Source: Gemmatirosa kalamazoonensis | Lineage (GTDB): Bacteria; Gemmatimonadota; Gemmatimonadetes; Gemmatimonadales; Gemmatimonadaceae | Direction of reading: 5' to 3' | Assembly: GCF_000522985.1 (NCBI RefSeq) | Contig: NZ_CP007128.1 | Location: forward strand, 1,472,220 to 1,536,219 | DNA length: 64,000 nucleotides | In this document: positions 21,046 through 63,221 of the stretch, piece after piece | Layout: every line of letters begins with the position of its first letter | How positions within the stretch are numbered: the first letter of the stretch is position 1 | Notes under the pieces: generated by a model | Told to the model about the DNA's origin: nothing | Seen by the model: only the letters and a program-made list of their open reading frames with translations | Databases searched by the model: none | Position numbers and translations under genes: made by a program

Positions 21046-21187
21046 GACTCCACGTACGTGTTTCTGGGGGACTGAAGAAGGACTGAAGGAGGACTGAAGA
21101 AGGACCAAAACACACCGTCTTTGTTGTTGTCCTTCTTAAGTCCTTCTTCAGTCCTCCTTCAGTCCTGCACGAACTCGTACGTGGAGC
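21046..21187. repeat. Hairpin element B1 (CTCCACGTACG ends, GGACTGAAGAA array)
   Basis: Terminal inverted repeats GACTCCACGTACG (21046-21058) and CGTACGTGGAG (21176-21186) enclose an array of ~11-nt GGACTGAAGAA/GGACTGAAGGA units and its complement, forming a ~140-nt hairpin. Two further copies with the same ends lie at 39878 and 56808. This copy separates divergent genes, so it is not merely a terminator; it starts at the base next to the crp-type ATG. Confidence 0.85.
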
Positions 21188-27453: not shown

Positions 27454-27525
27454 AACCGCAGAGGACGCAGAGGGCGCAGAGGACTGCCTAACGGCTCCTC
27501 TGCGCCCTCTGCGTCCTCTGCGGTT
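27454..27525. repeat. Perfect 30-bp hairpin (family A) between convergent genes
   Basis: AACCGCAGAGGACGCAGAGG... (27454-27483) is perfectly complementary to 27496-27525; the 12-nt loop contains GCCTAACG. It lies between the stops of tolC and ilvE and could terminate both, but has no T-tract. Same family as the hairpins at 3021, 37884 and 41599. Confidence 0.9.
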
Positions 27526-31542: not shown

Positions 31543-31622
31543 TCTCACGCGGAGACGCGGAGCACGCGGAGCACATCAAAAGCAAAGGCAGTTCTCCGCG
31601 TGCTCCGCGTCTCCGCGTGAGA
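31543..31622. repeat. Perfect 29-bp hairpin C1 (CTCACGCGGAG family)
   Basis: TCTCACGCGGAGACGCGGAG... (31543-31571) pairs perfectly with 31594-31622 around a 22-nt AT-richer loop. Copies of the family lie at 62737 and 63147, and as the outer layer of the nested element at 37851. It sits between argG's promoter and the end of the four-helix-bundle gene. Confidence 0.9.
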
Positions 31623-32203: not shown

Positions 32204-32289
32204 AGGGCAGGAGGGCAGGAGGGCAGGAGGGCACGAGAGGCGAAAGCTCCTGCCCTCCCGCCCTCCTGCCCTCCTGCCCTCCTGCCCTA
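32204..32289. repeat. Hairpin element D1 (AGGAGGGC array)
   Basis: Four GGCAGGAG units on the left and their complement (CTCCTGCC) on the right, separated by a ~15-nt loop. It ends exactly in the argR stop codon. A second, longer copy (D2) is at 46393-46525. Confidence 0.85.
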
Positions 32290-35990: not shown

Positions 35991-37053
35991 GATCCCGGTC
36001 GGCGTGTTGGGCGCGAGTGGCTACGCGGGGCGTGAGCTCTGCGGCCTCGTGGCCGGCCATCCGCAGCTCTCGCTCCGGTTCGCGAGCGCCGACTCCCGGC
36101 GTGGCGAGACCGCGCGCGTGCGCGCCGCGGGCACCGGCGCGCCGATCGACGTCACGTTCGTCGCCCCCGACGACGCCCGCCTGGACGAGGCGGCGCTCGT
36201 CTTCAGCGCGCTGCCGCACGGCGCGTCGGCCACCTGGTCGGCCCGCGCCCGCGCCGCCGGCGCGAAGGTGGTCGATCTGTCGTCGGATCTGCGGCCCGGG
36301 CACATCAAGCCGGAGGTTCTCTCCGCGCTCCACGCTCCACGCTCCACGCTCGCCATGTCGGGCGGCGGAGCGAGCGTGGAGCGTGGAACGGAGAGCGTGG
36401 AGGTACCCTACGGGTTGCCGGAGCTGTTCCGCGACGATGTCAGGGGCGCCGACGTGGTCGCGAACCCGGGCTGTTATCCGACGTCGGTCCTCCTCGGTCT
36501 CGCGCCGCTGGCCGAGCGTGGGCTGCTGCCGGAGGGCGCGGTCGTGAGCGTCGCCGCGGCGAGCGGCGTGTCGGGGGCCGGCAACTCGCCGAAGGCCGAC
36601 ATGCTGTTCGGCGAGGTGACGGAGGATTTCCGCGCGTACGGCGCCGGCAACGTGCATCGCCACCTGCCCGAGATGCGCGCGACGATGGAGCGGCTCGGCG
36701 CCGACGTGGACCTCGTGTTCACGCCGCACCTGCTCCCCGTGCACCGCGGCATCCTGGCGACGATGACCGTGCCCGTGACGGAGCTGCCTGACGACGTGGC
36801 CGGGCTCTGGCGCGAGCGCTACGCGGGCGAGCCGTTCGTGGAGATCGTCGACGGGAACGTGTCGCCGGCGCTGCGCGACGTGACGCGGCGCAACGTCGTG
36901 CGCATCGCCGCGATGCCGCTCCAGGGGATGCGGCGTCCGACGCTGCTCGTGCTCTCGGCGATCGACAATCTCGTGAAGGGCGCCGCGGGACAGGCGCTGC
37001 AGAACGCGAACCTCATGCTCGGCCTCGACGAGGCCGCGGGGCTGCCGCGGTGA
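35983..37053 (+). CDS. argC: N-acetyl-gamma-glutamyl-phosphate reductase
   Basis: 356 residues; NADPH-dependent third step of arginine synthesis. VGVLGASGYAGRELCGLVAG is the nucleotide-binding loop, VFSALPHGAS and VVDLSSDLRPG follow, VANPGCYPTSVLLGLAPLAE contains the catalytic Cys, and FTPHLLPVHRGILATM is the C-terminal signature. About 27 residues after DLRPG (LHAPRSTLAMSGGGASVERG and flanks) do not belong to the family and are encoded by a hairpin repeat inserted in frame at 36321-36402. Translation is coupled to argB by GTGA. Confidence 0.96.
   Translation: MHKIPVGVLGASGYAGRELCGLVAGHPQLSLRFASADSRRGETARVRAAGTGAPIDVTFVAPDDARLDEAALVFSALPHGASATWSARARAAGAKVVDLSSDLRPGHIKPEVLSALHAPRSTLAMSGGGASVERGTESVEVPYGLPELFRDDVRGADVVANPGCYPTSVLLGLAPLAERGLLPEGAVVSVAAASGVSGAGNSPKADMLFGEVTEDFRAYGAGNVHRHLPEMRATMERLGADVDLVFTPHLLPVHRGILATMTVPVTELPDDVAGLWRERYAGEPFVEIVDGNVSPALRDVTRRNVVRIAAMPLQGMRRPTLLVLSAIDNLVKGAAGQALQNANLMLGLDEAAGLPR
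36321..36402 (+). repeat. In-frame palindromic insertion within argC
   Basis: Left part has three CTCCACG units and right part their complement; the core stem TCCACGCTCCACGCTCGC (36336-36353) pairs perfectly with 36370-36387 around a 16-nt loop. Length is compatible with an in-frame addition, and the reading frame stays open through it. Confidence 0.85.
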
Positions 37054-37850: not shown

Positions 37851-38102
37851 TCTCGCGCGGGGACGCGGAGGACGCTTTTCGAATTGAACCGCAGAGGGTC
37901 GCAGAGAGCCGCAGAGAACGGCAACTGCTTTTCTTACCACAGCGGACACGGAGGACACAGAGGAAACCAAACAAGAGTGGCTCTCCTCCGTGTCCTCCGT
38001 GTCCTCTGTGGTTCAATTCAAAGAGGCAGTCCTCTGCGGCCCTCTGCGGCCTCTGCGGTCCATTCACACAGCCAAGGAAGTCCTCCGCGTCTCCGCGCGA
38101 GA
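37851..38102. repeat. Triple-nested hairpin element (families C, A and A')
   Basis: Fills the 305-bp gap between argB and argD. Outer arms TCTCGCGCGGGGACGCGGAG... (37851-37873) with 38080-38102 are family C; middle arms TTGAACCGCAGAGGGTCGCA... (from 37884) with ~38032-38062 are family A; inner arms ACCACAGCGGACACGGAGGA... (37936-37964) with 37984-38012 are family A'. Each layer sits in the loop of the one outside it. I see no gene or promoter within. Confidence 0.85.
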
Positions 38103-39879: not shown

Positions 39880-40019
39880 CTCCACGTACGAGTGTTCGTT
39901 GGACTGAAGAAGGACTGAAGGAGGACTGAAGAAGGACCAACACAACGTCTTTGTTGTTGTCCTTCTTCAGTCCTCCTTCAGTCCTCACTTCAGTCCTACT
40001 GAAACGCGTACGTGGAGTC
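39878..40019. repeat. Hairpin element B2 (CTCCACGTACG ends)
   Basis: Same structure as B1: GACTCCACGTACGAGT at the left end, CGTACGTGGAGTC at the right, and a GGACTGAAGAA/GGACTGAAGGA array with its complement between. It overlaps the last two bases of the argA-like stop and ends 3 bp before the esterase stop, so it fills a convergent gap completely. Confidence 0.88.
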
Positions 40020-41597: not shown

Positions 41598-41723
41598 TCG
41601 AACCGCAGAGGACTGCCTCTTCGACAGCAAGAGATCTGGGGATGAAAGGATCCTCAGGATCCTGGGATCCTTTCATCCCCCAGGTATTTGCTGTTGATGT
41701 TCTCTGCGGCCCTCTGCGGTTCA
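41598..41723. repeat. Nested hairpin: family A outside, GGGGATGAAAGGATC (family E) inside
   Basis: Outer arms CGAACCGCAGAG (41599-41610) and CTCTGCGGTTCA with a second CCCTCTGCGG unit (~41702-41722); inner arms CTGGGGATGAAAGGATCC (41636-41653) and GGATCCTTTCATCCCCCAG (41665-41683). GACAGCAA/TTGCTGTT pairs between them. Occupies the convergent gap between the TetR and kinase genes. The inner sequence recurs at 49685. Confidence 0.85.
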
Positions 41724-46392: not shown

Positions 46393-46525
46393 GGAGAGGG
46401 CAGGAGGGCAGGAGGGCAGGAGGGCAGGAGGGCAGGAGGGCAGGAGGGCGGGAGGGCAGGAGACCTTGTGGCTATCCTGCCCTCGCGCGTTTCGCGCGCG
46501 CCCTCCTGCCCTCCTGCCCTCGCTC
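46393..46525. repeat. Hairpin element D2 (AGGAGGGC array)
   Basis: Nine tandem GGCAGGAG/GGCGGGAG octamers on the left, CTCCTGCC units on the right, with a small CGCGCG hairpin (around 46490-46502) at the tip. Same family as D1. It spans the entire gap between the haloperoxidase stop and the tldE stop. Confidence 0.88.
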
Positions 46526-49666: not shown

Positions 49667-49746
49667 GCGAGGGCAACGACCAATGGGGATGAAAGGATCG
49701 AACGGATCTTCGCGATCCGTTCATCCCCGGTGGCAGTTGCCCTCGC
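49667..49746. repeat. Nested hairpin E2 (GGGGATGAAAGGATC type)
   Basis: Outer arms GCGAGGGCAAC (49667-49677) and GTTGCCCTCGC (49736-49746) are perfectly complementary; inside them GGGGATGAAAGGATC (49685-49699) pairs with GATCCGTTCATCCCC (49714-49728) with two mismatches. Upstream of the peptidoglycan-binding gene and of the divergent tldD. Confidence 0.8.
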
Positions 49747-56807: not shown

Positions 56808-56950
56808 GACTCCACGTACGAGTCTCTGAAGGACTGAAGCAGGACTGAAGAGAGACTGAAGAAGGACCAACCACAAAAAAAGTGTTGTTGGTCCTTCTTC
56901 AGTCCTCCTTCAGTCCTGCTTCAGTCCCCCACGAACTCGTACGTGGAGCC
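56808..56950. repeat. Hairpin element B3 (CTCCACGTACG ends)
   Basis: GGACTCCACGTACGAGT (left) and ACTCGTACGTGGAGCC (right) enclose GGACTGAAGCA/GGACTGAAGAG units, an A-rich tip (ACCACAAAAAAAGTGTTG) and the complementary array. Same family as B1 and B2. Located in a convergent gap between the hydrolase and the esterase. Confidence 0.88.
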
Positions 56951-62736: not shown

Positions 62737-62816
62737 TCTCACGCGGAGCCGCGGAGGACGCGGAGAACACCACCTGTTGTTGGTTTCCTCCGCGTTCTCC
62801 GCGGCTCCGCGTGAGA
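62737..62816. repeat. 29-bp hairpin C2 (CTCACGCGGAG family)
   Basis: TCTCACGCGGAGCCGCGGAG... (62737-62765) pairs with 62788-62816 with one G-T mismatch; loop 22 nt. Left boundary of the GxxExxY pseudogene region; nearly identical to C3. Confidence 0.88.
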
Positions 62817-63146: not shown

Positions 63147-63221
63147 TCACGCGGAGCCGCGGAGGACGCGGAGAAACCCCAAGGCAGTGGTGTTCTCCGC
63201 GTCCTCCGCGGCTCCGCGTGA
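63147..63221. repeat. Perfect 29-bp hairpin C3 (CTCACGCGGAG family)
   Basis: TCACGCGGAGCCGCGGAGGA... (63147-63175) pairs perfectly with 63193-63221 around a 17-nt loop. It starts 8 bp after the GxxExxY remnant's stop. Confidence 0.9.

Follow-up and report, generated by a model that had tools for sequence, protein, structure and literature searches.

Rickettsia palindromic elements (RPEs) are repeats of ~150 bp that encode a conserved peptide and have a high share of their copies in ORFs (PMC10969869). Intragenic REPs carrying GTAG/CGTC tags occur in several phyla, encode 20-30 aa and have been found in tRNA synthetase and DNA-repair genes; Gemmatimonadota are not mentioned in the paper that describes them (PMC3733652). 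Direct repeats of the heptamer TAACTGA are known from Beggiatoaceae, Cyanobacteria and Bacteroidetes (PMC4679880).

The element described here lies in argC of Gemmatirosa kalamazoonensis, a soil bacterium of the phylum Gemmatimonadota, within a 64,000-nucleotide stretch of DNA (the window). An earlier note on this DNA had drawn a parallel between the argC hairpin and RPEs, placing it in another phylum and in an essential-pathway enzyme. The parallel holds as an analogy, in that palindromes lie in frame in several housekeeping genes, but not as membership, the arms of tandem heptamers marking a different element. Housekeeping genes are indeed hit, but the other phylum and the essential enzyme are not new by themselves, since in-frame palindromes outside Rickettsia are already recorded in tRNA synthetase and DNA-repair genes of several phyla (PMC3733652). 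The reading that best fits the evidence below, to which we assign a probability of roughly two-thirds, is that these elements were inserted in frame long ago and have since been inherited at fixed sites, their arms having been rewritten in concert by arm-to-arm exchange.

A tandem-heptamer hairpin in the argC coding sequence

The argC ORF (Table 1) is uninterrupted along its full length despite the hairpin, in agreement with the earlier note, and its product matches the ArgC model TIGR01850 with 285 bits against a cut-off of 234. The position given earlier for the hairpin also proved correct. An inverted-repeat search returned arms at 36306-36353 and 36370-36417 that are 81% complementary, and RNA folding gave an outer stem of 11 bp (36320-36330 paired with 36393-36403) in addition to the perfect inner stem of 18 bp. 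The minimum free energy of the hairpin is -81.4, compared with -50.8 +/- 3.8 for shuffled sequences (z = -8.0; 0 of 200 shuffles equally stable). Matches among the heptamers of the 5' arm reach 95%. The array is translated as the 7-aa repeat LHAPRST, and its complementary strand yields RGAWSVE, which makes the term 'low-complexity', previously applied to these residues, only partly apt.

Table 1. Features of argC and its palindromic element in the window
Feature	Position	Strand	Basis
argC CDS with in-frame element, 356 aa	35983..37053	+	Open ORF; TIGR01850; closest PDB relative 1vkn
Palindromic element, encoding residues 113-140 (LSALHAPRSTLAMSGGGASVERGTESVEV)	36321..36402	+	Inverted repeat, fold, dispersed family
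5' arm, 4.4 tandem CTCCACG heptamers	36321..36351	+	Tandem Repeats Finder
18-bp perfect stem, 5' half (partner 36370-36387)	36336..36353	+	Fold
Loop separating perfect stems	36354..36369	+	Fold
18-bp perfect stem, 3' half	36370..36387	+	Fold
3' arm, CGTGGAG-type heptamers, one diverged unit	36370..36402	+	Inverted repeat, extracted elements
ArgC peptide region at insert (LHAPRSTLAMSGGGASVER)			

The open frame alone is weak evidence for an inserted element, because a random heptamer of the same base composition has a probability of ~0.81 of containing no stop in any frame. To that extent a coding repeat of chance or codon-level origin, palindromic by coincidence, would serve as well, but the stability of the fold speaks against it and the many dispersed, mostly intergenic copies described below refute it, so that its probability is close to nil. 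The idea that stop-free heptamers are an adaptation to insertion into coding sequence was rejected on the same 81%.

In the window protein, the ArgC linker that runs from DLSSDLR to YGLPE has 38 aa. The gain of ~27 residues reported earlier is borne out against typical relatives, in which the linker measures 9-13 aa, but against the nearest hairpin-free relatives (19 aa) the net gain is ~19 aa. In an AlphaFold2 model based on 35 ArgC sequences, the core has a pLDDT >90 and residues 121-140 have a pLDDT of ~50; the insert is modelled as a flexible loop on a confident core, with the predicted fold intact. The peptide encoded by the element is probably a tolerated flexible insert rather than a functional domain and, judged from the open frame alone, would be kept in mature ArgC.

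A dispersed family in the genome

The argC element sequence has at least 40 BLAST-scored places in the 7.48-Mb genome of the window (G000), with copies on the chromosome and two other large contigs, and a pattern search for inward-facing arms gave at least 100 matches per strand, overlapping matches counted, against 0 for the control. From 40 neighbourhoods of at least 6 kb, 43 hairpins with heptamer arms were extracted, these copy numbers being lower bounds. The elements are 68-97 bp long and consist of (CTCNNCG)3-4, a loop of ~20 nt and the reverse complement of the array. The argC hairpin thus belongs to a dispersed family of palindromic elements in this lineage, which is probably non-autonomous. 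Halves of the loops in L076-L155 recur in varied combinations (GGCCAG, GCTTCC and GCCATG starts, with complements at the opposite end), which suggests mosaic halves.

Genes were called with a simple codon-usage model, under which ~76% of the examined sequence is coding. Coding signal on both sides was found for 7 of the 43 elements (~16%), the remainder lying mostly in tight spacers; the in-gene share is far below the coding share (binomial p = 5e-15, in a test run with 8/43). Three candidate intragenic copies (L113, L119 and L133) were dropped, there being no coding signal upstream of the element. The 18 resolved spacers of this genome, with gaps usually <25 bp, comprised 14 between co-directional, three between divergent and one between convergent genes.

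In-frame copies in G000 lie in ArgC, IleRS, Lon, an ABC-F ATPase, an ABC exporter and two NRPS ORFs (NRPS being read from sequence motifs), and two further copies lie at the 3' ends of genes. In a genome of another genus, G015, they lie in ArgC, an ABC exporter, MnmE, MutS and an FlhF/SRP-type GTPase. The majority of in-frame copies are in linkers between Pfam domains, the Lon copy separating the lid and protease domains, the ABC exporter copy the membrane and ATPase domains, and the ABC-F copy the ATPase modules. The IleRS insert forms residues 620-657, in place of ~4 residues in IleRSs of the PDB. Elements of opposite polarity, in which a GAG-type array precedes a CTC-type array, were also observed (L105:4904-4982, L138:3046-3107, L144:2974-3035 and L147:3004-3064), and these too lie in frame, within the genes for Lon, MnmE, MutS and an SRP-type GTPase.

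A functional RNA or DNA hairpin maintained by selection in argC, for translation pausing, mRNA processing or protein binding, is improbable. The very stable fold, the compensatory changes between arms and the tight placement of intergenic copies between co-directional genes (14 of 18 spacers) are what such a function might produce, but outside the two nearest relatives the argC hairpin is without counterpart in argC of any relative examined, many copies carry one-sided arm changes, and copies occur in unrelated genes and differ in presence or absence between species. A search of Rfam with the element returned chance-level matches to miRNA hairpins, all far below gathering score.

Related arrays and other hairpin families

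Triplets of CTCNNCG numbered 306 in G000, 210 in G182 (a member of the same genus as G015), 156 in G015, 42 in G129 and 19 in G068, and were near zero in most of the 179 family genomes. Two further genomes, G010 and G069, contain arrays of other heptamers (CTCGCAT and CTCGCCA), some of them in opposite-polarity hairpins, which indicates that heptamer hairpins with their own units exist in several genera. Hairpins with such other units (CTCGCAT, CTCGCCA and AGTGCCT) were seen in Gemmatimonadota at L279, L281, L292 and L294 (G010 and G069) and at L207:6447-6555.

The window itself holds hairpins of further kinds. One family has arms of tandem 11-mers (GGACTGAAGAA; 21048-21186, 39911-39985 and 56810-56948), two copies of which are framed by CTCCACGTACG...CGTACGTGGAG. 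Tandem 8-mers (GAGGGCAG) form the arms of hairpins at 32204-32288 and 46436-46521. Repeated arms of CACAGAGGA-type and ACGCGGAG-type occur at 27454-27525, 31543-31622, 62737-62816, 63147-63221 and 37936-38012, the last lying in the spacer after argB. Hairpins at 41638-41680 and 49667-49746 have GGGGATGAAAGGATC in common.

The argC site and other sites shared between genera

Among ~70 ArgC sequences from relatives in the family and order, a hairpin at the argC point was found, besides G000, only in G015 (71% identity) and G182, the latter a fragmented assembly of 820 contigs. The insertion point is identical in all three, and the heptamer of both arms is CTCCACG in G000, CTCGGCG in G015 and CTCGACG in G182, so that the pairing is kept although the sequence has changed. 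Comparison of ArgC from relatives revealed a length difference, and both close relatives with extra residues also have the inverted repeat; neither condition that the earlier note had named as refuting its reading was therefore observed. The linker measures 8-23 aa in 53 named Gemmatimonadota loci, with two exceptions, of 27 and 49 aa, both hairpin-free; the 49-aa linker, in the ArgC of L170:3001-4074, is at the same place. This range of 8 to 49 aa marks a permissive site.

Since the argC site is filled in another genus too, the insertion is probably not recent. Codons on either side of the insert can be aligned between the genera but have no equivalent in other relatives, a pattern that favours a single insertion predating the divergence of the genera. 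The similarity of the argC loops between genomes is not above chance (p = 0.40 and 0.88), so that common descent at argC rests on position and flanking sequence. From these sequence comparisons, the argC insertion appears to have occurred once, before the genus split, and to have been inherited thereafter.

A MITE- or REPIN-type element that is still mobilised by a transposase and entered argC recently would be in keeping with the high copy number, the palindromic form and the presence/absence polymorphism between species. It is highly improbable, given that the argC site is filled in two genera and that the RAYT-type transposase domain (Y1_Tnp, PF01797) has no match in G000, G182, G068 or G129; the single match, in G015, has no heptamer arrays or hairpin nearby. 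A RAYT was rejected as the driver in G000 on this ground. Inverted repeats are present as in MITEs, and no target-site duplications were recognised by eye at filled and empty sites, which are too diverged.

Besides argC, ten sites have an element in at least two genomes. Comparison of neighbourhoods gave five positions common to G000 and G015, namely argC, an infB-like/rbfA-like spacer, an ABC exporter, an ftsH-like/folP-like spacer and a fifth. Targeted flank searches identified further sites that G182 has in common with these genomes or lacks; the genes bordering spacers were named from sequence. The ftsH-like/folP-like spacer is filled in all three genomes, and MutS, the FlhF-type gene and spacers L121, L130 and L131 are filled in both G015 and G182. 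The ABC-F site is filled in G000 and G182 and empty in G015, the IleRS site is filled in G000 and empty in G182, one ABC exporter site (L120) is filled in G015 and empty in G182, and two spacers filled in G000 are empty in both G015 and G182. The empty ABC-F site of G015 (L265) retains the 9-nt GCGGACGGC, also found in the G182 loop (L260), possibly a remnant of an in-frame deletion of the arms, although this is suggestive only.

The main rival to inheritance is independent insertion at hot spots, in which the same permissive loops and tight spacers were invaded separately in each lineage, by a family belonging to that lineage, and the differences between arms are differences between families. 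Several observations lend it some weight: arm units are genome-specific at all sites common to both genera, the argC loops show no significant resemblance, related genomes contain several sub-families, and in Xanthomonas the recB REPs of X. campestris and X. oryzae are 'about at the same site' yet different (PMC3733652). However, five exact coincidences among ~43 and 38 elements compare with ~0.03 expected, an estimate that assumes uniform placement within 100 bp. Taken overall, the loops of shared sites also resemble each other more than unrelated loops do (mean similarity 7.6 versus 2.8, p = 1.4e-4), and the sequences flanking the argC insert can be aligned between the genera to the exclusion of other relatives. 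Independent insertion is therefore considered unlikely, though it is the alternative that deserves most attention, and inheritance at fixed sites is preferred.

Concerted change of the arms

In G000, 203 of 262 units have CA as the variable dinucleotide NN of the heptamer, and in G015, 57 of 88 have GG; arm units differ at every site common to G000 and G015/G182. Between G015 and G182, three of seven common sites have switched unit, a proportion drawn from one genome pair with one fragmented assembly; the switch, between GG and GA, affects both arms in argC, MutS and spacer L131/L246. Mixed elements with one arm of each type are present in ABC-F of G182 and in the FlhF-type gene of G015, as expected of switching intermediates, and such mixed arms can still fold through G-T (G-U) wobble pairs. 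Units departing from the consensus were matched across arms more often than expected both in G000 (6 observed versus 1.1 expected, p = 0.0008) and in G015 (10 observed versus 1.6 expected, 0 of 5000 shuffles). In four of ten comparisons (L091/L128, L082/L132, L131/L246 and L130/L252), loops match only as the reverse complement, and exchange between two arms would leave such an inverted loop between intact arms.

Under inheritance at fixed sites, slippage within an arm would spread one heptamer along the array, and template switching or recombination between the inverted arms would copy the unit to the opposite arm, sometimes flipping the loop. Together, slippage and arm-to-arm exchange would account for the matched arms, the inverted loops and the mixed intermediates, and we infer from the sequences that the arms were rewritten in this way. 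Whole elements may also have been replaced by conversion from other copies. Slippage and arm exchange would not suffice by themselves for a single dominant unit per genome, which would need exchange among copies, a burst of insertion or a unit-recognising factor. A more far-reaching proposal is that the elements are self-homogenising tandem-heptamer hairpins with their own unit or units in each genome, all arms at old fixed sites being rewritten to a new unit through a unit-recognising factor or genome-wide arm conversion. This is doubtful at present; if true, genome-wide arm rewriting would change the sequences of housekeeping enzymes as a side effect.

Comparison with known elements

Like RPEs, dispersed palindromes whose in-frame peptide inserts are tolerated by many functional genes of unrelated kinds (PMC10969869), the heptamer elements lie in frame in argC, IleRS, Lon, ABC-F, ABC exporter and NRPS genes. 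In contrast to RPEs, they measure 68-97 bp rather than ~150 bp, have tandem-heptamer arms, encode a peptide that follows the heptamer and differs between genomes instead of being conserved, and have only ~16% of their copies in genes; this separation is drawn from the published description of RPEs. They resemble tagged REPs in being palindromes inside ORFs, most copies of which are intergenic and near ORF ends (PMC3733652), but have longer stems built of tandem 7-mers. No GTAG/CGTC end tag was seen by eye in the extracted elements, the ends of which are not sharply defined.

REPINs, REP doublets that go with a RAYT transposase, are likewise inverted and form hairpins with compensatory changes (PMC3116915), but G000 has no match to a RAYT-type transposase, and the outer arms are the conserved part of REPINs, whereas those of the heptamer elements vary in concert between species. 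The TAACTGA repeats, too, are tandem heptamers scattered over the genome, for the most part close to gene starts and sometimes in ORFs, but consist of one fixed direct heptamer with a single indirect repeat reported (PMC4679880), in contrast to the inverted pairs of several heptamers found here. In the open-access literature, no description was found of heptamer-armed hairpins in Gemmatimonadota, nor any account of such hairpins with arms changing together at fixed sites.

Palindromes lying in frame have mainly been described as one-off insertions, whereas the argC point can be traced through three genomes with both arms differing together each time. The series provides a natural test of how perfect palindromes are maintained, by selection for pairing or by copying from arm to arm, and points to the turnover of DNA repeats as a route by which a loop of an essential-pathway enzyme is repeatedly rewritten.
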